A stretch of 64,000 nt of DNA from Polyangiaceae bacterium. Its GTDB lineage: Bacteria > Myxococcota_A > Polyangia > Polyangiales > Polyangiaceae. Every line of letters begins with the position of its first letter. Positions within the stretch are counted from its first letter, which is position 1. Position numbers and translations under genes: made by a program. Under the pieces are notes generated by a model, which worked only from the letters and a program-made list of their open reading frames with translations, had not been told where the DNA came from and ran no database searches. Positions 1,966 to 31,785 of this stretch are shown in pieces. The DNA lies in assembly GCA_020846005.1 (NCBI GenBank), contig JADLEQ010000096.1:1-64000 (forward strand), read 5' to 3'.

Positions 1966-4908
<2,943 letters not shown>

Positions 4909-9904: not shown

Positions 9905-9936
9905 GGACGACGGGTCGATCGAAGACGAGGTGCGTG

Positions 9937-11736
9937 GTGGCGAAGCCCAAGATTCAGACGAAGAAGAAGAAGGCGGCAGCTCGCACCAGCGGCGCCGCGC
10001 GCCCCTCGCGCCACGCCAAGGTGAGCCGCGGCACGAGCTCGGCGGGGAGCTCCGCGCGCCAGGCGACGCGGGCCGCGGCGCCGGCGCCGGAGCTCGACGA
10101 GGAGGTCTCGGACACGGCCGTCGCGGACAGCGGCGCGGAGCCCCCCCCGCACGAGGCGCCGGCCGAGGAGTTGGGCGTCACGTTCGAGGAAGACTCCGAC
10201 GACGAGCCCATCGCGGAGCCGGTCGAGGACGCGTCGCTCGAGGAGCCCTCGCCCCGGCGGCCGTCTCCCCCCGCGCGCGAGCCGGCCGTCGGCCCCCCGG
10301 TCCGGGCGCGGTCCGGCGACGAGGAAGCGCAGCGGAGCAGCGACCCGGTGCGCCTCTACCTGCGCAAGATGGGGAGCGTCCCGCTCCTCACGCGCGAGGG
10401 CGAGGTCGCCATCGCGATGCGGATCGAGGACGGCGAGCACCAGGTGCTCGACGCCATCCTCGGGACCCCGATCGCGCTGCGCGAGATCATCGAGCTCGGC
10501 GAGCGCCTCGAGCAGCGCAAGTCGCGCATCCGTGAGATCGTGAAGGACGGCGACGACGAGGAGCAGGCGTTCGACGAAGCCGAAGCGGAGCGCAGGTTCC
10601 ACAAGGTCACCGCGCGCGCTCGGGAGCTCGAGGCTCGCCTCCGCGACGCACCTGCGCGACGCGCCGGCGGCCCCGGGGGACGCAAGGCCGCGGGGGACCT
10701 CGCCGGTGAGCGCAAGGAGCTCGTGACCGCGCTCCACGCCATGCGCCTGAACAAGCGCACGGTGGACCGCATCGTGGGCAAGCTGAAGGCGCTCGTCGAT
10801 CGCGTCGAGCAGCTGGTGGGCGGAACGCGGGAGGCTTCGTTCGCCGCCGGGGCGCGCGCGGAGCTGGCGAGGCTGCTCGAGGGCGGGACGGTCGCAGCGC
10901 CTTCGGCGGCCGCTGACGCGAGCGATCGCAAGGCAGACGAGTCGGTTCGAGCGGCCGTCCAGGAGCTCCGGGCGACCTACGAGGCGCTGCGGCAGGGCGA
11001 GCGACGCGCGGAGGCGGCGAAGGCGCAGCTCGTCCAGGCGAACCTCCGCCTGGTCGTGAGCATCGCGAAGAAATACACGAACCGCGGCCTGCAGTTCCTC
11101 GACCTCATCCAGGAGGGGAACATCGGCCTGATGAAGGCGGTCGACAAGTTCGAGTACCGGCGGGGCTACAAGTTCAGCACCTACGCGACGTGGTGGATCC
11201 GGCAGGCGATCACGCGCGCCATCGCCGATCAGGCGCGCACGATCCGCATCCCCGTGCACATGATCGAGACGATCAACAAGCTCATCCGCACGTCGCGCTA
11301 TCTCGTCCAGGAGCTCGGGCGCGAGCCGACGCCGGAGGAGATCGCGACCAAGATGGAGCTGCCGCTCGACAAGGTCCGCAAGGTGCTGCGTATCGCGAAG
11401 GAGCCGATCAGCCTCGAGACTCCCATCGGCGAGGAGGAGGACAGCCACCTCGGCGACTTCATCGAGGACAAGAGCGCGGTGAACCCGGCCGACGCCGTGA
11501 TCAACCTCAACCTCTCCGAGCAGACGCGGCGCGTGCTCCGCACGCTGACGCCGCGCGAGGAGAAGGTGCTGAGGATGCGCTTCGGGATCGGCGAGAAGAG
11601 CGACCACACCCTCGAGGAGGTCGGCCAGGATTTCGAGGTGACCCGGGAGCGGATCCGCCAGATCGAGGCGAAGGCGCTGCGCAAGCTCCGGCACCCCGCT
11701 CGGGTGAAGCAGCTGAAGACGTTCGTCGAGGGCTGA
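9937..11736 (+). CDS. rpoD: RNA polymerase primary sigma factor (sigma-70)
   Basis: Directs RNA polymerase to housekeeping promoters. From the GTG at 9937 (protein begins MAKPKIQ, with a GAGG 6 nt upstream) it is 599 aa. Region 1.2 starts near residue 136 ([11 protein letters not shown]). A long non-conserved insert follows. Regions 2.1-2.4 start near 365 ([12 protein letters not shown], then [16 protein letters not shown]). Region 3 follows, and region 4.2 is near 555-590 ([17 protein letters not shown]). The first 130 residues are a Lys/Ala then Asp/Glu/Pro-rich low-complexity tail in place of a recognisable region 1.1. An in-frame GTG at 9901 overlaps the dnaG stop codon and would add 12 residues. 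Same operon as dnaG. Confidence 0.96.
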
Positions 11737-11771: not shown

Positions 11772-14700
11772 TCAGTCGCCCTGCCAGGGGCGACCCGCCG
11801 CGGCGAGCGCCCGCTTCGCCTCGTCCCGGTAGGGCGAGTCGCGGGGGCCGTCCCGCAGGAACGCCTCCCAATGGCGCGCCGCGTCCTTCCCGGTGCCGAG
11901 CGCCCGCGCGTAGAGCAGGTGGGCGTCGGGCAGCCACCGAGGCTTGGACTCGGCCGCCTCGCCGAGCTGGATCGCGCGTCCGAGGTGATCGGCAGCCTCC
12001 CCGGCCCGGTTGTTCGCCGCGAGGAGGCGTCCGTAGCGGTAGCGCCACATCGCGTTGTCCGGGTGGGCGCGGACGGCGAGCTCCCACTCCGCGATGGCCT
12101 GGGCCTCTTTGCCTTCATCATAGTAGGCCTCGGCGAGCGTCGCGTGCGCCTCGTGGCGGCTCGGCCGGAGCTCGAGCGCCTTCCGCAGGTCGGCGATCGC
12201 GTCGCGGACGCGCCCCTGCCGGTACGAGAGCACGCCGCGCTGCCAGTAGGCGTCGGCGAGCCCCTGGTCGAGCGCCAGCGCCTTGCGCAGCGCCTCCTCT
12301 GCCTTCGCTACCCTCCCCGCCTCGTTCGCTGCCCAGCCGACGTACAGGTAGTACTCCGCCCGGTTCGGGTCGAGCTCCACGGCGCGCTCGAGCGTCCGCA
12401 ACGCCTCCGCGAGGTTCTGCCCCTTGAGCAGCATGGCGCGCCCGAGGCAGTGGTTCGTCTCCGCCGACTGCTGGCGTTGGGACAGCACCTTGCGCAGGAG
12501 CTCCTCCGCCTGCTCGGGGCGCCCGGCAGCCACCTTGCTGCATCCGACGCGGAGCATGAGGTCCGGGTCGTTCGGCGCCTTGGCGAGCGCTCCCTCGTAA
12601 GCGCGAAGCGCCTCCTCCGTGCGACCCGAGGCCTCGAAGAGCAGACCGCGCTCGAGCGCCAGCCCCGGGTAGTCGCGATCGACCGCGGCGACGGCGTCGA
12701 AGGCCTTGGTCGCGTCCTCGAAGTTGCCCTTCCGGCGGTGCGCGATGCCGAGCTTGAACCTCGAGTCGAGGTCCGTCGGGTCGATCCCCACCGCGCGAGC
12801 GAGCTCCGCGAGCGCGTCGTCGTACCTCCCTTGCGCGAGCGCCAGCTCGCCGAGCGCGCGGTGGATGAGCGGCGAAGTCGGCAGCTTCTCCTTGGCGTCG
12901 GCGAGGATCTTCTGCGCCTCCTCTCCGCGCCCCTGCTGGTTCAGCACGAGCGCGAGCGCGACATAGGCGAGCACCGCGTCGGGCTCGGTGGGCCCGGCCG
13001 CGACCGCCGCGCGATAGGCCGCCTCCGCCTCCGGGCGCATCCCGAGCGCCTCCTGGACCTTGCCGTCCCAATACGCGACGATCACGCTCTTCGGGTGCGC
13101 GACGCGCAGCTTGCGCAGCATCTCCTTGGCGTCGTTCAACCGCTCGAGCGCGATGGTCGTCTTCGCGACGCCGACCTGCGCCAGGAGGAAGTCGGCATCC
13201 GCCTCCGCCGCCGCCTGGAAGCGCGCGAGCGCCTCCGAGTATCGACCGGCGCGGTAGAAGGCGTCGCCCAGGCCGGCGAGCGCGCGCGCCCACTTGGGAT
13301 CGATCTTGAGCGCCTCGCCGTACGCGGCCTCCGCCAGCGACACCCGCGAACGCCCGAGGTGGATGTCCCCGAGCAGCGTCTGCGCGCGCACGACCTCCTC
13401 GGGGCTGGCGCCGGGGCTGCCGACCACCTCGGTGAGCAGCGCGGACGCGGCCTTCTCGTCCGCCTGGGTCGCCCAGAGGACACCGGCCTCGAGCAGCCGC
13501 GCGCCCACGTGGGCGGGGTTGCGCGCGAGCGCCTCCTTCGCCCGCGCCGACGCGCCGGCACCGTCACCAGAGAGCTGGAGCGCACGCGCCAGCCCAAACG
13601 CGGTGCGAGGGCTCTTCTCCAGCGCCTCGGCGGTCGTCCACGCAGCCACCGCAGCCCCGGCGTCGCGCGCGCGGAGCGCCAGCTCCGCCTCAAGGACGAC
13701 CACGTCGATCTTCTCCGGCTCCCGACCGGAGGCCTGTTGCGCGAGCTGAACGGCGCGGGCGAGCTGACCGCCGACGCCGGCCTGGGCCGCGAGCGCCAGC
13801 CCGTAGTGCGGCACCCCGTCGCCGCCCTCGAGGGCCTTCAGCGCGACCTGAGCGCGGGCGTTCACGTCCGGCGCGGCGCCGAAGCGAAGCTCGTGGAGGA
13901 ACGCGGCGTACGCACCGTACGCCGCGAGACCCTTGATCCGCCGAGCGCCCTCGCGCGCCGCCTCGAGATCCTGCAGCCCGGTTCGCGCGGTGTCGAAGGT
14001 GTCGCGCGCGAACGCGACGCGGGCCCGGGCAGCCTCGTCGCGGAGGCGCTGGTCGTACTCGCCCTTCCGCAGCGTGTCGTTGATCACGTGGTAGCCGAAC
14101 GGGCCCACGTCGGGCAGCGTGGCGAGGGCCCCGCCTCCGACGACGAACAACACCGCGGCGACGACCGCGTAGCGCCCCCCCCTGCGCGACCGCGGCGCCT
14201 CCACCGGCGCGGTCGGGGCGGTCGCGACCGGCGCGTGGAGGGGCCCGCCCGGCGGCGCCATCGACGCCTCCGCGGAGGCGTCCCGCTCCTGCGGGATCGC
14301 CCCGAACTCCATCTCGTCGCCCAGCCCGGCCTCTTCACCGCCGCCGAGGTCGACCTCGCCGAAGCTCACGCCCCCCCCAGCCTGCCGCGTGAGCGCCTTC
14401 TGATCCTGCGGGACGGATTGAGACGGGGGTTGCGACGGCCCTCCCGGCGCGGGCGGGGCCGAGGAGGGCCCCCCGAACGGATCGGACGCCGGAGGCTCGA
14501 AGGACGAGCGGGCCGGCATCGCGAACTCGCCGCTCGGGGCTCGCATCCGATCGCCGGGGAACTCGCCGGAGGGCACGGCCGACGGCGGCCCGCCGGAGCC
14601 CCCGCCGCCGAACGCCGCGAAGGCGCCGACGCTCGACGCGGAGGCGCGCGGCGGAGTCGGCTGCGGCCACGCTGCGCCGGCGTCACCCCGCCCGAGCGAA

Positions 14701-15899
14701 TCCGGCGCCTCGAGATCGCCGAAGGCCGCGAGCCCGCCGCTCGGCGGCGCGGCGGTGGCAGGCAGCGCGGCGCCGCCCAGCGCGGGGAGCCCGGAAGACG
14801 AGATCGCGGGGAGGGCCGCCCCGCCCAACGCGGGGAGGGCCGCCCCACCCAACGCCGGGAGCGCAGCCCCACCCAACGCGGGGAGCCCGGTCCCGCCTAC
14901 GGTGGGGAGTTCTGCACCGCCCACGCTCGGCAGGTCCGCGCCGCCGAGGCTCGGCAGCTCCGCGCCGCCCAGGCCCGGCAGGTCCGCGCCGCCGAAGCTC
15001 GGCAGCTCGACGCCACCCAGGCTCGGCAGCTCGGCGCCGCCCACGCTCGGCAAGTCGAGCGAATCCGTACCGGGGAATCCCACATCAGGGAGCGCGGGGA
15101 GATCTCCCGCGGGCCCGGCCAGCGCAGGGAGCTCGAGATCGTCGAAGCCACCTCGGGGAGGGGCGCCGAAGGCGGCGGCTCCGCCGACCGTCGGGAGATC
15201 GAAGTCGCTCGCGGCGGGTGCTCCGCGCGTCGGCTGCGCCGCCCCGTGCCCGCCCAGGGACGGGAGGTCGTCGTCGAGCAGGTCGAAGGCGTCGGGCGCG
15301 GCCGGAGAAGGCGCGGGGCCGCCCGCCCGCGGGGCACCGCCCGCCGCGAAACCCGCCGGGCTCGGAAGCTCCGGGGCGTCGAGATCGATCTCGCCGAACG
15401 CTGCCGGCGCCGGTGGGTGGGGCGCCGCCGGGGCCGGCGGCGCCGCCGCCAGGTCTCGCGCGCGCGGGGCGTCCGGCGACGTGCGGTGCGCGGAGGGCCG
15501 CGGGGGCGGCGCGGGGCGCCCCGGAGCGCGGGGCGCGGACACGCCCACGACGGGCAGATCGAGCTCGTCTCCGCTCGCCGGAGGCGGTGGGGCGGCGGGC
15601 ACCGGCGTGGGCGGCGGAGGCGCCGCCGGCGGGCGCTGCGCGCCGCCCCCCGGCGCGGCGACGCCGACGATGGTGGCCGCGCGCGGGCGGCGCGGGACGG
15701 GCGGCGGACCGGCCGGCGCGCCGCGCGGCTCGGCCTGCAGGACGGGGCTCGGGCCCGTCTGGCGCGGATCCCTGGGCGGTGGGTCCACGCGGAACGACTC
15801 CCCACACTTCGGGCAGCGCATCTTGAGTCCAGCCGCGGGGACCCGGCGCTCGTCGACCTGGAACGGTGCCTTGCACCCGGGACACTCGACCTTGAACAC
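11772..15899 (-). CDS. MJ0042-type zinc ribbon, octapeptide-repeat and TPR membrane protein
   Basis: A 1375-aa protein of unknown specific role. In order it has an N-terminal MJ0042-type zinc ribbon (Cys6, Cys9, Cys29, Cys32), a Pro/Ala-rich region, about twelve copies of an LPxLGGxx octapeptide at about 280-381, a further Pro/Ser-rich linker, one transmembrane segment near 575-597, and a C-terminal domain from about 670 to the end with many tetratricopeptide repeats. This places the zinc ribbon in the cytoplasm and the TPRs in the periplasm. The ribbon-linker-TM-TPR order resembles myxobacterial trans-envelope scaffold proteins, but I cannot name an orthologue. It converges on rpoD across 35 bp and starts divergently, 98 bp from the parvulin-like gene. 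Confidence 0.88.
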   Translation of the reverse strand: MFKVECPGCKAPFQVDERRVPAAGLKMRCPKCGESFRVDPPPRDPRQTGPSPVLQAEPRGAPAGPPPVPRRPRAATIVGVAAPGGGAQRPPAAPPPPTPVPAAPPPPASGDELDLPVVGVSAPRAPGRPAPPPRPSAHRTSPDAPRARDLAAAPPAPAAPHPPAPAAFGEIDLDAPELPSPAGFAAGGAPRAGGPAPSPAAPDAFDLLDDDLPSLGGHGAAQPTRGAPAASDFDLPTVGGAAAFGAPPRGGFDDLELPALAGPAGDLPALPDVGFPGTDSLDLPSVGGAELPSLGGVELPSFGGADLPGLGGAELPSLGGADLPSVGGAELPTVGGTGLPALGGAALPALGGAALPALGGAALPAISSSGLPALGGAALPATAAPPSGGLAAFGDLEAPDSLGRGDAGAAWPQPTPPRASASSVGAFAAFGGGGSGGPPSAVPSGEFPGDRMRAPSGEFAMPARSSFEPPASDPFGGPSSAPPAPGGPSQPPSQSVPQDQKALTRQAGGGVSFGEVDLGGGEEAGLGDEMEFGAIPQERDASAEASMAPPGGPLHAPVATAPTAPVEAPRSRRGGRYAVVAAVLFVVGGGALATLPDVGPFGYHVINDTLRKGEYDQRLRDEAARARVAFARDTFDTARTGLQDLEAAREGARRIKGLAAYGAYAAFLHELRFGAAPDVNARAQVALKALEGGDGVPHYGLALAAQAGVGGQLARAVQLAQQASGREPEKIDVVVLEAELALRARDAGAAVAAWTTAEALEKSPRTAFGLARALQLSGDGAGASARAKEALARNPAHVGARLLEAGVLWATQADEKAASALLTEVVGSPGASPEEVVRAQTLLGDIHLGRSRVSLAEAAYGEALKIDPKWARALAGLGDAFYRAGRYSEALARFQAAAEADADFLLAQVGVAKTTIALERLNDAKEMLRKLRVAHPKSVIVAYWDGKVQEALGMRPEAEAAYRAAVAAGPTEPDAVLAYVALALVLNQQGRGEEAQKILADAKEKLPTSPLIHRALGELALAQGRYDDALAELARAVGIDPTDLDSRFKLGIAHRRKGNFEDATKAFDAVAAVDRDYPGLALERGLLFEASGRTEEALRAYEGALAKAPNDPDLMLRVGCSKVAAGRPEQAEELLRKVLSQRQQSAETNHCLGRAMLLKGQNLAEALRTLERAVELDPNRAEYYLYVGWAANEAGRVAKAEEALRKALALDQGLADAYWQRGVLSYRQGRVRDAIADLRKALELRPSRHEAHATLAEAYYDEGKEAQAIAEWELAVRAHPDNAMWRYRYGRLLAANNRAGEAADHLGRAIQLGEAAESKPRWLPDAHLLYARALGTGKDAARHWEAFLRDGPRDSPYRDEAKRALAAAGRPWQGD

Positions 15900-15997: not shown

Positions 15998-16552
15998 ATG
16001 GAACTCTCGTCCCGTGTCGCGCTGGGTGCGCTGCTCTTTGCCGCGGTGGGCGCGGTGGTTCTCGGGACTCGCCAGGGCGCGGTGAGCGCGCCCGCCGCGC
16101 CGCCGGCGCCGCCGAGCGCCTCGGCGAGCGCCTCGGCGGAGCCGGACGCGCCGGGCGACGCGGGCCTGGACGGTGAGGTCGAGGCCGAGGAGGCAGAGAC
16201 GACGCTCGGCGCGACGGCCGACGGAGGCAGCTTGCCCGCCGGCGCGCCCAAGAGCGTCCGCTTCGGCGTCATCTTGGTGACCTACGAGGGCGCCCAGCTC
16301 GCGCCCCGCGGCGCGCGCTCCAAGCAGGCCGCGCGCGCGCTCGCCACCGAGCTGGCGACCGAGGCGCAGACCCAATTCGCGAAGGCCGTGGAGCGGGGCG
16401 ATCGAGGCTCGCTGGCCGACGCCGGCCGGATCCCGCGCGGGATCCTCGAGCCCCATATCGAGTTCGCGCTGTTCACGCTGAAGAAGGGCGAGGTGGCTGC
16501 CGAGCCGGTCGACACGCCGCGCGGCTTCTGGGTCGTCCGGCGGCTCGAGTAG
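15998..16552 (+). CDS. Membrane-anchored parvulin-like (PpiC) domain protein
   Basis: A 184-aa protein with an N-terminal hydrophobic anchor (about residues 6-23), an Ala/Pro/Ser-rich spacer to about 85, and a C-terminal parvulin-type rotamase-like domain. The domain shows the family pattern: RFGVILVTYEGAQ at the start, a SKQAARALATEL helix, a GILEPHIEFALFTLKKGEVA block, and a terminal GFWVVRRLE. It is probably a periplasm-facing peptidyl-prolyl isomerase or a chaperone-like relative; the catalytic residues cannot be judged without alignment. ATG at 15998 chosen because the anchor follows it directly. It lies between the zinc-ribbon TPR protein and the giant TPR pair, 75 bp before the latter. 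Confidence 0.7.
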   Translation: MELSSRVALGALLFAAVGAVVLGTRQGAVSAPAAPPAPPSASASASAEPDAPGDAGLDGEVEAEEAETTLGATADGGSLPAGAPKSVRFGVILVTYEGAQLAPRGARSKQAARALATELATEAQTQFAKAVERGDRGSLADAGRIPRGILEPHIEFALFTLKKGEVAAEPVDTPRGFWVVRRLE

Positions 16553-16627: not shown

Positions 16628-19600
16628 ATGACGACCCGCCCCCCTGCACCCACGGAGCCGGCGCTCGCCGCAACGGTCGACCGCCTGCGCGCCGAGCACG
16701 ACGCCGCCGTCGAGGGCGCCGTCCGCGCTGCGCTGCTCCACGAGATCGGGCTGCTGGAGGAGGCGCTCGGCGACGAGGCCGGCGCCGCGCGAGACCACCT
16801 CGCGGCCGTCAACGCGGAGCCTGAGTTCCGCGAGCCGCTCGAGCGCCTGATCGCCATCATCGAGCGGCGCCAGTCGTTCAAGAACCTGGGCAAGCTCCTC
16901 GAGCGGCTCTCCCGCGTGGCGGACAGCGCCGAGGAGCGGGCGAGGGCGCTGCACGCGCGCGCCGCGTTCGCGCTGGACCACGACGACGACGCCACCGGCG
17001 GCCGCGAGTTGGCCGAGGAGTGGGTCGGCGAGGCGCCGGACGACGCCGCGGCGTGGCTGCTGCTCGAGTGCGCGGCAGGGCGGCTCGAGGACGCGCCGCT
17101 CCGCCTGCGCGCGATGACGGAGCGAGCCGAGCGCGCGCGCGACCCGGAGTGGGCGGCGCTGCTCTGGGCGGACCTGTCGAGCCTTGAGCTCGACGCTGAC
17201 GCACCCGACCGCGCGTTCGAGGCGGCCGAGCGCGCCGCCGGCTTCGAGTCGGGCGCGACGTGGGCGGCGCTGCGACGTCTCGAGGAGCTGGCCACGCGCG
17301 CCCAGCGCCCCGACCGCCTGGCGCGAGTGCTGGAGACGCAGGCGGCGCTGCTCGAGCGGCGCCGCGAGGCGCCGGCGGAGGGCGACCGGCTCGGTGTCCC
17401 CCGGTGGACCACCGGGACCGGTCCCATCGCCGACGCGCTGCTCCGCGCCGCCGCGGCGGCGCGCGCCCACGGCGATGTGGGCCAGGCGACGACGCTGCTC
17501 GACCGCGCGCTCGAGGCCGCGCCCGACGAGCCGTCCGTGCTCGCGGCGCGGCTCGCGGCCGCCGAGGCGGTCGGTGATCTGGAAGGCGCGTCGGTGATCG
17601 CCCGCAAGGCACTCGAGCGAGGCGCCTCCGGCGGCGTCGCCGCGGCGCTGTGCCTCAAGCTGGCCGAGGCGGCGTCGGCAGCGGGCGACGCCGCCGGCGC
17701 GCTCGCCGCCGCACAGGCGGCGCTCGGGCACGACCCGGGCTCCATCCCGGCGCGGACACTCGCGCTGGACCTCCTCGCCGGCGCGAGCGACCCGCCGGCG
17801 CTCGCCGGGCTGCTCGAGAGCACAGCCGAGCGGTGCGGGGCCGACCCCGCCAGGGCTCGCGGATTCCTGCTGGCCGCCGACGCGTGGGCCCGGGGGAACG
17901 AGCCGCAGGCCGCGCGGGCGGCGCTGTCGCAGGCCGGCATGTACGGCGCGAGCCCCGGCGTGGTGGCGCGAACGGCCCGCATGCTCGCCGGCGCGGCGGC
18001 AGACACGGCCTGGTACGACGAGGCGACGCGCCGGCTGATGGCCGCCGGCGCCGACGCCAGCGAGCAGGCGTCGCTCGCCTTCGAGCTCCTCCGCGGTCGC
18101 CTGCAGCGCGGCGACGCGACCGGCGCGCAGACGGCTGCGTCCGCCATCGCCGCCGCGCCGGGCGGCGAGTGGCTCGGCCACGCGCTGCGCGCGTGGCTCG
18201 TCGTGGATGGCGACGGCGCCTCGGCGGCGAGGGATCTCGCGGGCACCGTGGGCGACGACGACCACGCCGCGGCCCTGCGGGTCGTCGCGGCCGCGAGGGC
18301 GCTCGCCGGCGGGCGCGCCGACGAGGCGCACGGCGACCTCGTCGCGCTCGCGGCCGAGCCGGGCCCGGGCCTGATCGCGGCCGTCGCGGCAGCCGCGCTC
18401 GATCGCGAGGCCGGCGCCACGACGGCCGCCGCCGAGCTCCTCGCCGGGGCGGGCGATCGCGCCGAGGACGCGCCGCTCGCCGCCGCGCTGCTCCTCGAGG
18501 CGGGGCTGCTGCGGTGGCGCGCCGGGGACCGCGCGGGGGCGCTCGAGGCGTTCCGCGGCGCTGCCGACCGCGACCCCACAGGCGCTGGCGCGGTCCTCGG
18601 GTGGGCGCTCCGGTCGGCCGATCCAGAGTCCATCGAGGCCCGTCGCGCGGCGCTCGCTTCGGCGCCAGCGGACGACACCCTCGCGACGCTCGAGCGCTAC
18701 GGACTGGAGCTCGCGACCAGCGACGGGGCGGAGGCCGCGCGCGCCGCGCTCGAACAGCTCGCCGCCGCTCCCTCGCCGCTGCCCGAGGTCGCGACGCTCG
18801 CTCGCGCCCTCGAGCCCGGCGTCGAGCACGCAGACGACCGCATCGCGGCCCTCGACGAGCTAGCGCTGCTGCCGGGGACGACCGCGCTCGTCGCCGGCGA
18901 GCAGCACCTCGCGGCGCTCGCGGGCGGCGCCGCCGGCACCGCGGAGCTCGCCGCGAGCGCCGCCGCCTGGGCGGGCGCGGACGAGTCGAGCGCCGCGGCG
19001 GCGCTCGAGTGGGTCGCGCGCGCGGTCGGGGCGGCCGATCCGGCGGCGGAGCTCGACGCGCGACGCGCGCTCGCCGCGCGGCTCACCGAGCCGGCGTCGC
19101 TCGAGATCGAGTGCGGCGTGCGCATGGCCTCCGCGCTCCGCGGTGAGAGCGAGCCGCTGCTCGGGCGACCCCAGGCGTCGGCGCGCGCGGCGGACCTCGA
19201 GCTCGCGCCGCCGGGGTCGGACCCGGCGCGGCGCGCGGCCGCGCTTCGGCGCGCGAACGTGCTCTTCGGGGCGGAGACCGGGCCGGTGTTGTCGGCGCTG
19301 GCGGGGTGGAACCAGCTCGCCCGCGGGGACCTCGAGGGCGCGCAGAGCTCGTTCCGCGCGGTCGCCGAGGCCCACCCGACGGACGTGTTCGGGTGGGACG
19401 GGCTGCGCGCGGCGTCCGAGGCGCTGGGCGACCGCGCGAGCGTGGCAGAGGCGCTCGCGGCGCTGGGCGACGCACTGGCGGACGCCACGACGGGCTCGGA
19501 GGCGTGGGAGCGCGCCGCCGCGATCCTGATCGACGAGCTGGGCGACCACGGCCGCGGCGAGCTCGCGCTCTCCCGAGCGGTCGAGCGCGACGTCCGTCGC

Positions 19601-21307
19601 TTCAGCTCGTTCGATCGTTTGTTCCGCATCGTCCGCAGCCGCAAGGACGGCGCGCGACTGCTCGAGCTCGTCGAGGCGCGCCTCGCAGTCGCCGAGGAGC
19701 CCGACGAGATCGCCAAGCTGTTCTGGGAGCGGGCACGCGTGCTGCGCGAGGCGGGGAACCTGGAGGGCGCGCTCGCAGCCCTCGAGAACGTGACCATGCT
19801 CGAGCCGGACCACGTGGGCGCGCTCGCGCTGTCCGGCGAGATCTGCATCAAGACCGGCAATTTCGTCGAGGCAGCGCGCAACCTGGGTCGGCTCGCGGCG
19901 CTGGACGAGGCTCCGCAGAAGCAGCGCTTGATGAGCGGTGTCGCCGCCGTCGACCTCTACGAGAACAAGGTCGGGGACCCGGCCGCCGCCCTCGAGGTGC
20001 TGGTCGAGCTCCACCGCGCCGGGCTGTCTACGCTCGCGGTGCGCGAGCGCCTGGCGCGCGCCGCCACGCGCGTGCAGTCGTGGGAGCACGCGGTCGCCGC
20101 CCTCGAGCTGCTCATGGAGGAGCGCGAGACCCGCGAGGGGCGGATGGAAGCCGCGCGCCTGGCGCTCGCCGTGCGGCGCGACGAGCTGCACGCGCCCGAG
20201 GGCGCGCGCTCGGCCGCGGCGCGCCTCCTCGCCGAGGCGCCGGAGGACGCCGAGGCGCTCGATTTCGTCCTCAGCGGCGCCCTCCCGGCCGCGAGCGCCG
20301 CGCCGCTGCTGCAGGCTGGGCAGCAGGCGCTCGTCGCCGCGCTGGCGCAGGAGCCGCTCGACGCGGAGCGTGTGAACCGGTTGGCGAGGATCGCCCTTCA
20401 TTTTGGCAACTCGCCGCTCCGGCAGGCGGCGCTCGGCGCCCTCGTCGCGCTGGGGCGCGGCTCGCCGCAGGTGGACGCCGAGCTGCAGCGCCTGGACGAG
20501 CGAGTGGCGCGGCTACCGCAGATCGCCGTCGACGCGGCCGCGCTCCCCGAGCTGTGCGATCCTTACGACGGCGGCCCGGTCGGCGAGCTGATGGTGGCGC
20601 TCGCGACGACGTTCGCCGAGGCGGTGGGGCCCGGGCTCCAGGCCTTCGGCGTGGGCAAGCGCGAGCGCGTCGACCCGCGCGCCGGGCTCCCGATCCGCAA
20701 TGAGGTGGCCGCGTGGGCGGGCGCCCTCGGCGTGGGGGACTTCGAGCTCTACGTCGGCGGGACCGACCCGCACGGCATCGCCGCTGTGCCGCTCGAGACG
20801 CCGTGCGTCGTCATCGGGGCGTCGGTGACAGCGCCGCTGGCCGCACCGCACCGCGCCGCGCTCGCGCGTGAGCTGTTCGGGCTGCGCCGCGGGACGACCC
20901 TCTTGCGCCACCGCGAATCGGCGGACGTCGCTGCGCTCGTCGTCGCCGCGTGTCGCGTGGGCGGGGTCGACGTGCCGAGCCCGCCCTACGCGATGCTGGC
21001 GGAGTTCCAGCGCCAGCTCGGCAAAGAGATCTCCCGCAAGGCGCGCAAGGTGCTACCCGACCTCGCTCGCGCCGTCGCGCACTCCGGACAAGACCCGGTG
21101 GTCTGGGCGCAGGCGGCGCGCGCCAGCCTCGATCGCCTGGCGGCGATCGCGGCAGGTGACGTGTCCTGGGTGCTGGCGGGCGTCGGCGTCCGCGGGCACT
21201 TGGGCGCGTCGGACGAGGCCCGGAGCCGCGCCGCGCGGCTCCTCGGGTTCGTGCTGTCGCCGAGCTACCTCGCGATCCGCGAGCGACTCGGGATGGGAGT
21301 GCGATGA
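16628..21307 (+). CDS. Giant TPR protein with M48-like C-terminal domain lacking HExxH (first of pair)
   Basis: A 1559-aa Ala/Glu/Leu/Arg-rich protein made almost entirely of helical TPR-like repeats. No signal peptide or membrane segment is evident, so a cytoplasmic scaffold is likely. The last 250 residues differ: they have a beta-strand FELYVGG near 1373 and, about 40 residues later, LARELFGLRRG near 1413. Spacing and sequence recall the core of M48 metallopeptidases, but the zinc-binding HExxH is replaced by ARELF. The next gene has a matching domain. ATG at 16628 preferred; a TTG at 16586 would add 14 residues. Its stop overlaps the next start (ATGA), so the two proteins are probably made together. 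Function unknown. Confidence 0.85.
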   Translation: MTTRPPAPTEPALAATVDRLRAEHDAAVEGAVRAALLHEIGLLEEALGDEAGAARDHLAAVNAEPEFREPLERLIAIIERRQSFKNLGKLLERLSRVADSAEERARALHARAAFALDHDDDATGGRELAEEWVGEAPDDAAAWLLLECAAGRLEDAPLRLRAMTERAERARDPEWAALLWADLSSLELDADAPDRAFEAAERAAGFESGATWAALRRLEELATRAQRPDRLARVLETQAALLERRREAPAEGDRLGVPRWTTGTGPIADALLRAAAAARAHGDVGQATTLLDRALEAAPDEPSVLAARLAAAEAVGDLEGASVIARKALERGASGGVAAALCLKLAEAASAAGDAAGALAAAQAALGHDPGSIPARTLALDLLAGASDPPALAGLLESTAERCGADPARARGFLLAADAWARGNEPQAARAALSQAGMYGASPGVVARTARMLAGAAADTAWYDEATRRLMAAGADASEQASLAFELLRGRLQRGDATGAQTAASAIAAAPGGEWLGHALRAWLVVDGDGASAARDLAGTVGDDDHAAALRVVAAARALAGGRADEAHGDLVALAAEPGPGLIAAVAAAALDREAGATTAAAELLAGAGDRAEDAPLAAALLLEAGLLRWRAGDRAGALEAFRGAADRDPTGAGAVLGWALRSADPESIEARRAALASAPADDTLATLERYGLELATSDGAEAARAALEQLAAAPSPLPEVATLARALEPGVEHADDRIAALDELALLPGTTALVAGEQHLAALAGGAAGTAELAASAAAWAGADESSAAAALEWVARAVGAADPAAELDARRALAARLTEPASLEIECGVRMASALRGESEPLLGRPQASARAADLELAPPGSDPARRAAALRRANVLFGAETGPVLSALAGWNQLARGDLEGAQSSFRAVAEAHPTDVFGWDGLRAASEALGDRASVAEALAALGDALADATTGSEAWERAAAILIDELGDHGRGELALSRAVERDVRRFSSFDRLFRIVRSRKDGARLLELVEARLAVAEEPDEIAKLFWERARVLREAGNLEGALAALENVTMLEPDHVGALALSGEICIKTGNFVEAARNLGRLAALDEAPQKQRLMSGVAAVDLYENKVGDPAAALEVLVELHRAGLSTLAVRERLARAATRVQSWEHAVAALELLMEERETREGRMEAARLALAVRRDELHAPEGARSAAARLLAEAPEDAEALDFVLSGALPAASAAPLLQAGQQALVAALAQEPLDAERVNRLARIALHFGNSPLRQAALGALVALGRGSPQVDAELQRLDERVARLPQIAVDAAALPELCDPYDGGPVGELMVALATTFAEAVGPGLQAFGVGKRERVDPRAGLPIRNEVAAWAGALGVGDFELYVGGTDPHGIAAVPLETPCVVIGASVTAPLAAPHRAALARELFGLRRGTTLLRHRESADVAALVVAACRVGGVDVPSPPYAMLAEFQRQLGKEISRKARKVLPDLARAVAHSGQDPVVWAQAARASLDRLAAIAAGDVSWVLAGVGVRGHLGASDEARSRAARLLGFVLSPSYLAIRERLGMGVR

Positions 21308-24300
21308 GCGACGACGAGCCGCCGAACAAGGGAGGGCCCGAGGCGCGGCGCCCGCTGGGCGCGGGCCGGAGCGGCCCCGCTGCCAGCATCGGCGCCGAGC
21401 TCGGCGCGCTGGACTTCGAGCCGGACGCGCTGCTCGACTCCCTGTTGACGGAGGACGACGCGCTCCCCGCCTCGCCGCGAGTGGCCGTCCGAGCTCCGTC
21501 GTCGCCGGGCTCGCAGAGCGGGGGTAGTGCTCCTCCCCCTACCCCCGATCTTGCGCCGCGCCCTCCGGCGGCGCCCCGGCCCGCGCCGACGCCGGCCGCG
21601 GCGCCGGCAGCGCCGCGGCCGGCCGTCACGGCGGCGGCGCCGCCCGCGCCCCGCCGAGCCTCGCCGACCCCCCCGGCGCCGGCCTCCAGCGCGGGCGGGC
21701 TCCCGCGGCCGGCACCCCGCACGCCGCTCGATCGGACGCAGAAGCCACCCGCGGTCAACCCCGCGGGCCCCCCGCCTCGGGAGCCGTTCCTGCCGGCGCA
21801 CAGCCCGGTGGCCCCCGTGGCAGCAGACGTCGGCGCGGGCGAGCTCGACTTCGAGCTGATGGACGCCGGCTCGTTCGAGCCTCCGCCGGTCGCCGCGGCG
21901 GGCGAGGCGCCGGCAGAGCCTCCCGCGGATCCGGTCGAATTCGAGGCGAGCGGCGAGCTGTCGGCGGCCGAGGCCGCAGAGCTCGAGGCGCTGGCCGCCG
22001 CGAGCGAAGACGCTGGCGCAGAGGACGTCGAGGTGCCGAGCGAGGACGCCGGGCCGGCCGCGGCGCAGCTCGCGAGCATGGGTACGCTCGACGCGTTCGC
22101 GGAGCGCGCACGTTGGACGGAGGAGCGCGCGAGGGAGCTGGTGGACACGCCCGCGCGCGCCCGGGGGCTCCTCATCGCGAGCGAGCTGTGGGCGCTCACG
22201 GGCGAGCTCACCCACGCCCGCGAGCTAGCGGGTGAGGCCGCTTCACTCGTCCCTTCGGGCTACGGCGCGAGGCAGCAGCGGGCCCTCGCGGCCGTCGAGG
22301 GGGACCTGCCCTCGGTCGTGAAGGCGCTCGACGTCGAGGCGCGCGCGGCGGCGACCCCCGAGCTTCGCACGCACGCGGCGACCCTGGCGGCCGACATCGC
22401 GCGCCTCCTGCTAGAGGACGCGGCCGGCGCGGAGCGGCGGCTCGCGGTGGCGGCGAAGCTCTCACCGAGCGACGCGCGCGCCCCGCTCCTCCAGGTCGCG
22501 GCCGCCCTGGGGCAGGCCCGCCCTGCCCGCCCGAAGCTCCCTGAGGGCGCGCCGCTCGCCGGGCTCCGTCACGCCGTGGACGCCCTCCTCGTGCTCCGAG
22601 GGCTCGCGGCGGGCGACGCACCGCCGTCGCCGCTCTGGGCGTTCGAGCGAGCGCGCCGCGCCCTCGGCGCGCACGATCGGGCGACCGCGGCCGCCGCGTT
22701 GCTCGATCTCGGGGGTCTCGCGCCGCTCGGCGTCACGTCGCGCTGGTTGGCGAGCGCCGTCGCCGCGCCGACCGCGGCCTCTCGCGGCCTCTCCACACGC
22801 GCGCTCGAGGAGCTCCTCCAGATCGAGCCGAACGAGACCGCGCGGCGAGCGCTCGCCGCGCGTGCCCTCGAGAGCGGCGACGCGACCGCCGTCCTCGCAG
22901 CGCTGGAGAGCGACGTCTCGAGCTCGCCGACGTTCGGGCCAGCCGACGCCCTGGCGCTGGCGGTGCTCGCAGGTGCCGACGGCGGCAAGCTCCGAGACCG
23001 GGCGGCCGCGGCGCTGGGCGTGGTGGAGCTGGAGCCTCTCGCGGCGGCGGTCGACTCGTGCGCCGCCGGCGCCCTCGACGCCCCGGCGGTGCTCGCGGGC
23101 ATCGAGTCGAGCCGCGCGCGCGTCGCCCTGGGCCGCGCGCTGGCGGGCGCGACGCGCGAGGGCGGCGCGGCGCGCGTCGCTGCGGCGGTCGACGCCGCGG
23201 CGGCGGCGCTCCCGGGCGACCCCGCGGCGACGCTCCTCGCGCTCGAGCTCGCGCGGCGAGCCGGCGACTACGGGGCGCTCGCGACCTCGTTCACCAGCGG
23301 CTCGGGCGCCGGCGTGGGCGGCGACGAGCGGAGCCGCCGGCTGGCGGCCGCGCTCGCGAGCGAGCTCGCGCAAGACTCGGAGGGCGCCGTCGAGCAGTAC
23401 CGCGGAGCGCTCGAGGCCGATCCGCGCTGCGAGGCGGCGACGCGCGTGCTCGCGTCGGTGGCTGGCGGCGAAGGTGCGGCCGATCTGCTCGCCTCGCTCG
23501 CCGCCGCCTGGGGTGAGGGTCCCCCGGCCTCGCTGCTGCTCGTCGAGGCGGCGCTCGGCGCAGGCTTCGGCGCGCCCGATCGGATGAGCGAGCTGCTCCT
23601 CGAGGCCGGCACGACGCCGGAGGTGCCGTTCGCGGCGCGCTGGGGCGAGCTGCTCGGTCGCATGCGGGGCGACACGGACGCCGTGCTCGGCTGGCAGCGC
23701 GCCCGGCGCGCCGCGGCGGACGACCCGGTCGAGCGCGCCCACGATCTCGTCCGCGAGGCGTTGCTGGTGGCCGAAGCAGATCTCGACCAGGCGGCGAGCC
23801 TGATCGGCGAGGCGGTCCAGGCGCGCCCCGAGGACGTCGCCCTCCGTGAGCTGCACGAGCGCCTCGCGCCCGGTGACCCGGCCGCGCAGGCCGCCTGGCG
23901 TGACGAGGTCGCCCGGTCGGCGTCCGACCCCTTCAGCCGGCGCTGGCTGCTCGAAGCCGCCGCCTTCGCCCACGAGCGCGCCGGGCAGTTCGAGGCCGCG
24001 GCGGCGGCGGCGCGCGCGGTCACCCCCGAGCCGGGCACCCTCGCCGACCTGCTCGCCGAGCGGTGCAGCCGCACGGGGCCGCAGGCGGCCCTGCTCGCCG
24101 AGCGCCTGCTCGCCTCCGCGCGCGCGACCGAGGACGCCCGTGAGCAGCGAGAGATCTACGAGCGGCTGGCGGCGCTCGACGAGGCTCGCGGCGAGGCCTC
24201 GAGCGCGCTCCTCTGGCAGCAAGCGATCCTCGAGGGGACGCCGGGGCACCTCCCCGCCCTCCGCGCGCTCGAGCATGCCCGGATCGGCGCCGGGCGCGAC

Positions 24301-26598
24301 GCCGAGCTGGAGGCGGTCGCCGCGGCGCTCGCCGAGCGCCTGGGCACGGATCCCGAGGCCGAAGCGCACGCGCTCTGGGCGGCCCGCCTGCGCGCCAAGG
24401 ACTCCGGCTGGGAGAGCGCGGCACCGCTCGCGGAGCTCGCCTGCCGCGGAGCTCGCCCCTCGTTGCTGGCGCTGCGCCTCGCGTCGGCGCTGTCGCGCAG
24501 CCGGGGCGAGGACGCGAAGCAGCTGCGCCTCGACGTCGCGCTCGCCGAGCGCTCCGCGCGCGCGCTCGATGCCTCGACGCTCCGCCTTCGCGCCGCGGAG
24601 GCCGCGTCGCGGCTGGGCCAGCAGGACACCGCGCGCTCGCTGCTCGCCGCGGCGGTCGACCAGTGCGCCGAGCACTTCGTGGCCCTCACCACCTACGCCG
24701 ACGTGCTGGAGGCGGAGGGAGAGGCGGCCCGTGCCGCCGAGGCGCAGGAGCGGATCGCGGAGCGGAGCGGCGTCGCGATCCATCAGCTCGCCGCGTGGCA
24801 CCACGCCGCGCTCCTCTGGCTCGACAAGGTGGGCGACGCCGCGCGAGGCGTGCGAGCGCTGGAGCAGGCGTTCGAGCGAGACACGACCCACGAGGACGTC
24901 TTCGCGCGCCTGCAGGCCGCGTACATCGCCGCCGGCGAGCGCGCCAAGCTGGCCGAGCTCCTGGAGCGGCGGCTCGAGCGGGTCGAGGACCCGGCCGAGC
25001 GCGTCGCGTTGGAGGTGACCCGGGGGCGCGCGCTCTACGAGATCGGGGACGCCGCGGCCGCCAAGCACGCCCTCGCCGCCGCGCTCGAGCAGGCGCCCGA
25101 TCACATCGACGCGCTCCGCGCCTACGCGGACCTCTGCGCCGCGGAGGGTGACTGGAGCGGCGCAGAGCAGGCCTGGTCGAGCCTGGCTCGTCAGCTCAAG
25201 GAGCCGCTCGCCCAAGCCGAGATCTACCGCCGGTTGGGCGCGCTCTACGAGGCGGACCTCCCCAACCCGGCCCGAGCGGAGCTGGCGTACCGCGAGGTGC
25301 TGCGCCGCCTTCCGGGCGACGTGGCCGCGAGCGAGCGCCTGGTCGAGGTCTACGCGCGGCTCGGCGACGCGACGAAGGCGCAGGAGATCGTCGAGGCCTT
25401 GCTCGGCGCCGCGTCGACACCGGAGGAGACCCGCGACCGCACCTTGTTGCTCGCGCGGGTCCAGGAGGAGGTCGCGGGAGATCGCAAGGCGGCCGAGGCC
25501 ACGCTGGAGAAGCTCCGTAAGACGCACCCGCACGACGGACTCGTGCTGCGCGCGCTCGCCGGCTACCACCAGCGCGGCGGCGCGCAGGGGCCGCTCACGG
25601 TGCTCCTCGATCGCTCCGCCAACGAGGTGCGCCGCGCGCTCGGCACGGGGCGCTTCGAGGCGTCGTTCTTCGAAGTGCTGGCGACAGTCGCCGAGCTGCG
25701 CGGCCACGCGGACGCCGCGAGCGTCGCGCGAGCGACCCTGGCGATGCTGGAGGGCGCGCCGGTCGAGATCGCTGGGGCCGGGTTCGCGGCGGGCGATCCG
25801 CGCCTGGACGAGCTCCTCGCGCCCGAGCTCTTCACCCTCCCGTACCGGGCGCTGCTGAAGAAGAGCGGCGACCTGCTCGACGCCGCGTTCCCGGTCGACC
25901 TGCGGGGGCTGCGAGCGGCGCCGCTGCCCGCGGAGTACCAGGCCTTCGTCGCCCAGCTCCGCGAGGCGGCGACGGCGTTCGGGCTCGTGAACCTCGACGT
26001 CTACGTCTCGCCGTCGCTCGGCCCGGTGTGCATGCCCGCCTGCTCGTCGCCGGCCCAGATCGTGTTCGGGAAGGTGCTGCTCGAGTCCGAGGACGCCCTC
26101 GCGCGTACCGTGCTCGTGCTCCGCGCGCTCAAGATCCTCCAGGCGCGGCTGGGCGCGTTCGCGCGCACCGCGCCGGTGGATCTCTGGCCAGTCGCCGCGG
26201 CGCACCTCGCGGTCTTCGCGCCCGGCTGGCAGCCGCAGGGGGCCGACGCGAGGAAGTTCGCGGAGGCGCGGGCGAAGATTCAGGCGGCGATGACCCAGCG
26301 CCTCGACGACGACGTGCCGGTGCTCGCCCTCGAGGTGATCGGCAGCATCGGCAACCGAGCGAGCCAGCTCTCGACGGCCGCAAACCAGTGGGGCAACCGC
26401 GCGGCGCTCCTCGCGGTGGGCGATCCGAACGCCGCGCTGCGCGCGCTCGCGCTCTCCGCAGGGCAGACCGCGGGCCCCCCGGCGGAGCGAGCCGAGCGCC
26501 TGAAGTGGGTGACGCGGAACCCGGAGGCGCGGGATCTCGCGGTGTTCAGCGCGAGTGACGCCTACGCGGAGGCCCGGCGCCGGATCGGTCTCGGCTGA
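21304..26598 (+). CDS. Giant TPR protein with M48-like C-terminal domain lacking HExxH (second of pair)
   Basis: A 1764-aa protein, apparently paralogous to the preceding one. Residues 1-30 are basic and polar, 30-250 are a Pro/Ala then Glu/Ala-rich low-complexity region, and about 260-1500 are degenerate TPR repeats, clearest near the C-terminal end (for example ERLVEVYARLGDATKAQEIV). The C-terminal domain has LDVYVSP near 1564 and ARTVLVLRALKIL near 1599, the same arrangement as its neighbour and again without a zinc-binding HExxH. It starts inside the preceding stop codon (ATGA at 21304), so translation is coupled. No membrane segment is visible. A role in large-complex assembly is plausible but not demonstrated. 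Confidence 0.85.
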   Translation: MSDDEPPNKGGPEARRPLGAGRSGPAASIGAELGALDFEPDALLDSLLTEDDALPASPRVAVRAPSSPGSQSGGSAPPPTPDLAPRPPAAPRPAPTPAAAPAAPRPAVTAAAPPAPRRASPTPPAPASSAGGLPRPAPRTPLDRTQKPPAVNPAGPPPREPFLPAHSPVAPVAADVGAGELDFELMDAGSFEPPPVAAAGEAPAEPPADPVEFEASGELSAAEAAELEALAAASEDAGAEDVEVPSEDAGPAAAQLASMGTLDAFAERARWTEERARELVDTPARARGLLIASELWALTGELTHARELAGEAASLVPSGYGARQQRALAAVEGDLPSVVKALDVEARAAATPELRTHAATLAADIARLLLEDAAGAERRLAVAAKLSPSDARAPLLQVAAALGQARPARPKLPEGAPLAGLRHAVDALLVLRGLAAGDAPPSPLWAFERARRALGAHDRATAAAALLDLGGLAPLGVTSRWLASAVAAPTAASRGLSTRALEELLQIEPNETARRALAARALESGDATAVLAALESDVSSSPTFGPADALALAVLAGADGGKLRDRAAAALGVVELEPLAAAVDSCAAGALDAPAVLAGIESSRARVALGRALAGATREGGAARVAAAVDAAAAALPGDPAATLLALELARRAGDYGALATSFTSGSGAGVGGDERSRRLAAALASELAQDSEGAVEQYRGALEADPRCEAATRVLASVAGGEGAADLLASLAAAWGEGPPASLLLVEAALGAGFGAPDRMSELLLEAGTTPEVPFAARWGELLGRMRGDTDAVLGWQRARRAAADDPVERAHDLVREALLVAEADLDQAASLIGEAVQARPEDVALRELHERLAPGDPAAQAAWRDEVARSASDPFSRRWLLEAAAFAHERAGQFEAAAAAARAVTPEPGTLADLLAERCSRTGPQAALLAERLLASARATEDAREQREIYERLAALDEARGEASSALLWQQAILEGTPGHLPALRALEHARIGAGRDAELEAVAAALAERLGTDPEAEAHALWAARLRAKDSGWESAAPLAELACRGARPSLLALRLASALSRSRGEDAKQLRLDVALAERSARALDASTLRLRAAEAASRLGQQDTARSLLAAAVDQCAEHFVALTTYADVLEAEGEAARAAEAQERIAERSGVAIHQLAAWHHAALLWLDKVGDAARGVRALEQAFERDTTHEDVFARLQAAYIAAGERAKLAELLERRLERVEDPAERVALEVTRGRALYEIGDAAAAKHALAAALEQAPDHIDALRAYADLCAAEGDWSGAEQAWSSLARQLKEPLAQAEIYRRLGALYEADLPNPARAELAYREVLRRLPGDVAASERLVEVYARLGDATKAQEIVEALLGAASTPEETRDRTLLLARVQEEVAGDRKAAEATLEKLRKTHPHDGLVLRALAGYHQRGGAQGPLTVLLDRSANEVRRALGTGRFEASFFEVLATVAELRGHADAASVARATLAMLEGAPVEIAGAGFAAGDPRLDELLAPELFTLPYRALLKKSGDLLDAAFPVDLRGLRAAPLPAEYQAFVAQLREAATAFGLVNLDVYVSPSLGPVCMPACSSPAQIVFGKVLLESEDALARTVLVLRALKILQARLGAFARTAPVDLWPVAAAHLAVFAPGWQPQGADARKFAEARAKIQAAMTQRLDDDVPVLALEVIGSIGNRASQLSTAANQWGNRAALLAVGDPNAALRALALSAGQTAGPPAERAERLKWVTRNPEARDLAVFSASDAYAEARRRIGLG

Positions 26599-30789: not shown

Positions 30790-31785
30790 CTAGCGCGGCG
30801 CGCGCGCACCGCATCCCGCGCGAGAGACGACCGACAGGCCGCCATCGAGCGCGGCCCACGCGGCCAGGTCCCCGGCGCTCGAGGCGACGACGGTGGTCCC
30901 GAGCGCGCGCGCCTCGCGGACGGCGGTCGGGGCCCCTTCCCGCCAGGACGCGGCGAGCAGGACGTCCGCCGCGGCGATCCACTCGAGCGCCTCGTCCCGC
31001 GGGACGAGCCCGCGGAGCTCGGCGGCGGGGTGCGCCGCCGCGAGCTGCGCGCGGAGCGGCCCGTCCCCGAGCACCACGACCCGCGTACCCGGCACGAGCG
31101 CGGCCGCTCTCAGCGCCACCGCCACCCGCTTCGCCTCGATGAGCCGCGCCACGATCACGACCACCCGCGCGCCCTGCGCGACGCCGAGGCGCGCCCGCGC
31201 GCCCTCCCGGCTCAGCCCGGGCGGCACCTCGAACCGCGCCGGCTCGACGCTCACCGCGCCCCGCACGTGGACAGGCGCGATCGCCACGAGCCGCGCCGCC
31301 AGGTCGGCGGACACGCAGCGGTAGCGCGCGCCTCGCCCCGCCAGCGAAGCGAACAGCCGATCCCTCGCGAACGCCGGGAGCGCGGCGACCAGCTCGACGT
31401 CGGTCCCGTGACACACCACCTCCAGCCGCCCGCGGGCGCGCGCGGCGATGGGCCACGCCGCGGGGAGCAGCCAGTGCGCCACGACCTCGTCGAGCGCGGC
31501 GCCCGAGACCGCCCGCCGCGCAGCGGCGACGAAGCGCGCCACGCCCACCGCGCGCCGGGGCGCCTCGCGAAGCCGCGCGAGGGCCCCGGGCCACCCGAAC
31601 GCGTCGCCGCTCCGCAGCCACACGATCCGGGGGTTCCCGGGCTCGACGGCGCCCCACTCGGCCGGCGCGAAGACGGTGACCTGGTCCCCCGCGCGCGCGC
31701 GGGCGCGCGCCTCCGCTGCGACGAAATGCCCCGCTGGATCGCCCGGATGTCGCGGGTACGAGGTCGTCACCAGCGCGACGCGCAC
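30790..31785 (-). CDS. Glycosyltransferase, GT4 family
   Basis: A 331-aa GT-B fold glycosyltransferase. The N-terminal half starts RVALVTTSYPRHPGDPAGHFV, the acceptor-domain strand typical of GT4 enzymes. The C-terminal half has the nucleotide-sugar binding pattern: VVIVARLIEAKRV, VVVLGDGPLRAQL, and LLAASWREGAPTAVREARALGTTVV, which contains the ExxxxxxxE-type segment with the first Glu in REGAPT. The GTG at 31785 is preferred because AAGGAG (complement of 31794-31799) lies 8 nt upstream. The GTG at 31794 overlaps the DUF971 stop but touches the ribosome binding site. Probably transfers a sugar to a cell-surface glycan; donor and acceptor unknown. Downstream of and coupled to the DUF971 gene. 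Confidence 0.85.
   Translation of the reverse strand: MRVALVTTSYPRHPGDPAGHFVAAEARARARAGDQVTVFAPAEWGAVEPGNPRIVWLRSGDAFGWPGALARLREAPRRAVGVARFVAAARRAVSGAALDEVVAHWLLPAAWPIAARARGRLEVVCHGTDVELVAALPAFARDRLFASLAGRGARYRCVSADLAARLVAIAPVHVRGAVSVEPARFEVPPGLSREGARARLGVAQGARVVVIVARLIEAKRVAVALRAAALVPGTRVVVLGDGPLRAQLAAAHPAAELRGLVPRDEALEWIAAADVLLAASWREGAPTAVREARALGTTVVASSAGDLAAWAALDGGLSVVSRAGCGARAPR

Follow-up and report, generated by a model that had tools for sequence, protein, structure and literature searches.

A predicted M48-fold pseudo-peptidase domain at the C-terminal ends of two giant TPR proteins of a Polyangiaceae bacterium

Contig JADLEQ010000096.1 of a Polyangiaceae bacterium (assembly GCA_020846005.1) carries, in the stretch of 64,000 nucleotides analysed here (positions 1 to 64,000, called the window), two overlapping genes for giant tetratricopeptide repeat (TPR) proteins. 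Judging from sequence profiles and predicted structures, both proteins end in ~270 residues that belong to an unannotated M48-fold pseudo-peptidase domain family. We consider it likely, from the models and profiles and by analogy with the protease BepA, that this domain is non-catalytic and caps a cytoplasmic TPR scaffold, binding other proteins through an edge strand. The two genes and their C-terminal domains (CTD1 and CTD2) are as follows.

16628..21307, plus strand: gene 1 (type 1), an open reading frame (ORF) of 1559 amino acids with TPRs by Pfam and a predicted dead M48-like domain at its C-terminus.
20489..21301, plus strand: CTD1, residues 1288-1558, putative pseudo-M48 domain, limits from the hidden Markov model (HMM) envelope.
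21304..26598, plus strand: gene 2 (type 2), an ORF of 1764 amino acids with a Pro-rich N-terminus, TPRs by Pfam and a predicted dead M48-like domain at its C-terminus.
25735..26595, plus strand: CTD2, residues 1478-1764, putative pseudo-M48 domain, limits from the HMM envelope.

The longest ORF of gene 1 opens with a TTG; counted from an ATG 14 codons further on, taken here as the start, the protein has precisely the 1559 residues reported in a previous reading of this DNA from its letters (the sequence-only reading). The region start given there, 20540, does fall within CTD1, but about 17 codons inside the domain, which begins at 20489. The two genes overlap by 4 bp, and their TPR parts show collinear homology (E = 5e-15, pairwise BLASTP/phmmer). 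Hydropathy revealed no membrane or signal-like segment in the TPR proteins, which were therefore placed in the cytoplasm; by this sequence measure, the TPR superhelices bearing the dead M48 end look cytoplasmic.

Pairwise comparison of the two tails with BLASTP and phmmer gave nothing significant, which means that the two sequences alone could not reveal their resemblance. When each tail was used to search 144 genomes of the class, matches were obtained in 100 and 70 genomes, some of them common to both, and iterated HMM searches seeded by either tail converged on the same 61 loci, each tail recovering the other. As a test free of the circularity of such mixed iterated searches, an alignment of type-1 domains only was compared with one of type-2 domains only; HHalign matched them over 246 columns with a probability of 99.9% (E = 2e-36). 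On these sequence grounds CTD1 and CTD2 are homologous, and the two ends can be aligned via their families, as the sequence-only reading had supposed. The (E/D)-(L/V)-Y-V strand that it had described in both proteins, with a helix 38-40 residues further on, was found as well: in gene 1, ELYV begins at 1373 and ARELF 40 residues later, at 1413, and in gene 2, DVYV begins at 1565 and LVLRALK 39 residues later, at 1604. Family-wide, the strand shows E/D in 72% of the members, Y in 68/110 and V in 62/110, and the C-terminal third is the best-conserved part between close orthologues.

For comparison with true M48 peptidases, an alignment was made of PF01435 loci from 13 genomes of relatives. HHalign matched the family to it collinearly, over up to 166 columns, with probabilities of 63-79% for 59 members, 91.3% for 110 and 93.8% for 169 rows, and of 36% and 53% for the type-1-only and type-2-only alignments, respectively. 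The reversed M48 alignment, used as a control, gave 0.1%; of 19 windows taken from the TPR parts of these proteins, one reached 8.2% over 23 columns and the others at most 0.5%. In a set of ~420 proteins, the non-members that the family HMM matched best were true M48 peptidases (8e-6, 1e-5 and 5e-5), and the matches lay at their HExxH and ExxAD regions. Neither CTD matched any Pfam entry, including PF01435; Pfam searches with 59 single members yielded scattered chance matches with no family common to more than two of the 59, the sole NCBIfam match was far under the curated cut-off, sequence-profile searches of the Protein Data Bank (PDB) with alignments A1 and A2 returned chance matches only, and PADLOC detected no defence family. 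The same genome also has an intact M48 domain with HEYGH (G000:C80:17942-18448, locus L115) in an open frame of 1313 amino acids, with a homologue in genome G389; this apparently long and possibly membrane-bound protein is absent among the weak matches of the family profile.

AlphaFold2 models were obtained for CTD1 (residues 1293-1559; 59 mixed sequences) with a mean predicted local distance difference test score (pLDDT) of 93.9 and a predicted template modelling score (pTM) of 0.92, and for CTD2 (residues 1482-1764; 49 type-2 sequences only) with a pLDDT of 95.5 and a pTM of 0.94. Both models display a helix-strand-strand-strand-helix core with all three strands retained, and the following elements were assigned by DSSP on the models, by HHalign and by column counts.

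20744..20815, plus strand: CTD1 three-stranded sheet, residues 1373-1376, 1384-1387 and 1393-1396 (DSSP).
20843..20890, plus strand: CTD1 helix at the place of HExxH, residues 1406-1421, with R1414 on the first His (DSSP, HHalign; Arg in 92/110).
21095..21154, plus strand: CTD1 helix at the place of ExxAD, the third zinc ligand, residues 1490-1509, with R1503 (DSSP, HHalign, counts).
25996..26070, plus strand: CTD2 three-stranded sheet, residues 1565-1569, 1576-1581 and 1584-1589 (DSSP).
26095..26142, plus strand: CTD2 helix at the place of HExxH, residues 1598-1613, with R1607 on the first His (DSSP, family HHalign, column counts).
26359..26418, plus strand: CTD2 helix at the place of ExxAD, residues 1686-1705, with R1699 (DSSP, HHalign, counts).

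The core of the M48 fold (clan MA, gluzincins), namely the three-stranded sheet and the two helices of HExxH and ExxAD, was thus recognised in both models, more weakly in CTD1 than in CTD2. Foldseek ranked M48 structures high, with 3c37 and BepA for CTD1 and ZMPSTE24 first for CTD2, and its candidates were realigned with VIA-align. CTD2 superposed best on HtpX (Z 10.7; 94 of 101 residues; root-mean-square deviation 2.4 Å), followed by 3c37 (9.0), BepA (8.5), Ste24p and ZMPSTE24 (8.1 each), BlaR1 (7.4) and abylysin (6.0), the first unrelated row being TRAP1 with Z 3.7. In the case of CTD1, 3c37 (Z 6.3; 172 residues, 5.6 Å), BepA (6.1) and Ste24p (6.0) led, and the first unrelated row came only after a series of zincin-type rows ending at Z 3.3. 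Zincin-fold or HExxH proteins, some of which we take to be of that fold class, fill the leading 23 rows for CTD1 and 22 for CTD2, with M48 first. The expectation that the predicted structures would resemble M48 was borne out, M48 being the best among the solved folds examined for both CTDs.

The zinc-site residues have largely been replaced in the family. HHalign sets R1414-E-L-F-G of CTD1 and the type-2 Arg (R1607) on H-E-x-x-H, with the Arg on the first His, so the helix pointed out in the sequence-only reading does correspond to the HExxH helix. At the first-His position, 92 of the 110 members have Arg and one has His; in another 59 rows, some dozen of them repeats from the 110-member set, it is mostly R (30), Y (13) or K (7). 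The position of the catalytic Glu holds A in 46, E in 19 and S in 11 of the 110, and in place of the second His, 86/110 have L/A/I/M/V and two retain His. The third-ligand Glu of ExxAD is kept in 6/110; at this position, which was set by HHalign and may be off by one, gene 1 has R while gene 2 has N. R1503 nearby is retained by 106/110 and 54/59. Homologues retaining HExxH, which the sequence-only reading had proposed to look for, were absent among all 169 rows (about 155 of them distinct). Both features of an active M48 peptidase, HExxH and the third-ligand Glu, are therefore lacking in CTD1 and CTD2, whereas homology to the enzyme family is seen together with loss of its catalytic residues, and the proposal of a pseudo-peptidase is supported. 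With its zinc-binding positions replaced, the domain is expected to have lost both zinc binding and peptide cleavage by the known mechanism; from profiles and models we infer a loss of peptidase activity in the family.

Several observations weigh against a dead M48 domain with a binding role. The best Foldseek matches in the PDB are not significant (E = 0.16 for CTD2 and 0.71 for CTD1), and the Z of 6.3 for CTD1 is within the range that unrelated folds can attain. Both would fit an M48 likeness that is just a common helix-sheet arrangement, independently reached, which we regard as highly improbable: in the sequence profiles the HExxH and ExxAD helices agree with those of M48 in order and place, the match of CTD2 to HtpX extends over nearly the whole compared core, and in both models the top structure rows are zincin-type only. 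Some members keep single residues, such as the catalytic Glu, and a different metal or chemistry is conceivable for the domain. An enzyme with a metal-free or differently coordinated active site on the zincin fold could explain the strongly conserved Arg and a GD motif beside the old active-site helices, and the structure list includes 8s5f, which combines an HExxH fold with a chemistry other than that of peptidases. Such an enzyme is nevertheless very unlikely, since the column counts reveal no conserved nucleophile, acid/base or metal-ligand set and members carry different residues at the catalytic position. Finally, the neighbours of the gene pair differ between lineages, so that gene context names no process.

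A binding role of the domain is what we infer by analogy. In BepA, the edge strand of the M48 domain binds the client also in a chaperone-like, non-cutting role (PMC8423444), and the M48 and TPR domains are packed together (PMC7950410), which gives a precedent for binding here. An M48-type (gluzincin) fold with replaced zinc positions would cap long TPR superhelices at their C-terminus, the retained three-stranded sheet and the TPR surface would hold partner polypeptides as in BepA, and the domain, having lost its catalytic machinery, would only bind and position them. Genes 1 and 2 would be translationally coupled and probably encode two parts of one scaffold. The conserved Arg in the helices of the former active site would probably either stabilise a core without metal or take part in an anionic contact. 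The domain ends 0-7 residues from the C-terminus in 57/57 called genes, and TPRs are present in most examined members, as would also be expected of a purely structural cap closing the TPR solenoid without a binding role of its own. We hold this explanation to be unlikely: 270 residues far exceed what a solenoid cap needs, and the polar positions R1414, R1503 and R1551 and the basic stretch 1466-1473, which a plain cap does not need, are kept across very distant members.

The domain is widespread among the Myxococcota genomes sampled, most of which carry it. Its profile was found in 159 of 282 genomes sampled over Myxococcota, and in 55 of the 57 genomes of another class, with up to 11 copies per genome; the window's own genome (5.70 Mb, 119 contigs, high GC) has eight copies. 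Among 84,980 named genomes, the conserved-subset alignment A3 found 9 loci, all in metagenome-assembled genomes of Myxococcales, Myxococcota, Deltaproteobacteria or Proteobacteria, and a spread beyond the phylum is conceivable. One of these eight, on contig C107 (L171:5544-10865), is a protein of 1773 amino acids that combines a Ser/Thr kinase and TPRs with the dead M48 end; it lies among the paralogues of the window's genome. More tentatively, and with rather less than even chances in our view, the domain might be part of a phylum-wide Myxococcota scaffold system, in which dead M48 with Arg for the zinc His would form the standard recognition end of giant TPR proteins and TPR kinases, and many paralogues would each choose a partner or ligand via the former active-site cleft.

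Wherever both members of a pair were typed, the type-1 gene lies upstream of the type-2 gene and on its strand, often with an overlap of 1-4 bp; the 4-bp overlap of genes 1 and 2 recurs in 9 of 21 other fetched pairs. In a tree of 110 domains, the type-2 domains form a clade of 51 rows (support 100/99) spanning the class. Since the type 1-type 2 order is found across the class, the pair should be older than the class radiation sampled; by these sequence comparisons the gene pair is ancient. The tree is unrooted and includes other paralogues, so types 1 and 2 cannot be called each other's closest relatives. The tandem duplication put forward in the sequence-only reading thus agrees with the conserved order and the collinear TPR homology, but it would be old, and closest-relative status does not follow from the tree.

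Directly upstream of gene 1 lies the following gene.

15998..16552, plus strand: PpiC-type peptidyl-prolyl isomerase (PPIase; Pfam Rotamase, E = 4.9e-06).

A homologue is located upstream in 6 other fetched loci, but adjoins the pair only in close relatives. Across 40 loci, close relatives have the PPIase, other families of the order have an unnamed gene plus a NadD-like one, and at yet other loci the neighbours are an Ig/PPC-domain gene and one resembling a lipoprotein gene. The unnamed gene, of ~200 amino acids and without a Pfam family, follows gene 2 after 3-38 bp and precedes the NadD-like gene at L138:6609-7211 and five other loci. Adjoining the PPIase and TPR pair on the minus strand (11772-15899) is a gene for a large protein that carries Zn_ribbon_4 at its N-terminus and TPRs at its C-terminus, with a long stretch of low complexity and a membrane-like segment between them; four close relatives have one too. 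Further upstream lie a glnE-like gene (1966-4866), dnaG (8015-9904) and rpoD (9934-11736). A tRNA with a four-base anticodon (gtcc), called by ARAGORN on the minus strand (31212-31306) within a glycosyltransferase-like gene, is probably a false call.

Myxobacterial genomes harbour many giant TPR proteins of obscure role, and a shared end of theirs now has a probable fold, ancestry and history of lost catalysis. What were 'TPR repeat proteins' would become one defined family with testable sites, namely the edge strand and the Arg in place of the zinc His. Bacteria would thereby provide a further, large case in which a peptidase fold is retained without catalysis. Open papers gave no account of such M48 pseudo-peptidases (subscription journals were not covered) and nothing direct on giant TPR proteins of Myxococcota.

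In comparison with known systems, the N-terminal domain of anthrax lethal factor, which appears in the structure list of CTD1, is a zincin fold reused for protein binding, a role we take to be non-catalytic; it belongs to another peptidase family. The membrane peptidases Ste24p/ZMPSTE24 and BlaR1 (M48/M56) share the core fold with CTD2, whereas the proteins described here have neither membrane helices nor a zinc site. In M48 metallopeptidases (PF01435; HtpX domain 3cqb, Geobacter 3c37), a helix, three strands and the helices of HExxH and ExxAD are ordered and packed as they are here; our domain differs in the loss of HExxH and the third ligand, its place after long TPR arrays, an identity of ~10% and the lack of a Pfam match. 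E. coli BepA (YfgC) is a protease/chaperone that likewise has an M48 fold joined to a TPR superhelix. BepA is periplasmic and catalytically competent, with M48 first and four TPRs following (PMC7950410), whereas here the domain order is reversed, and a dead domain comes last in long proteins devoid of a signal-like segment.
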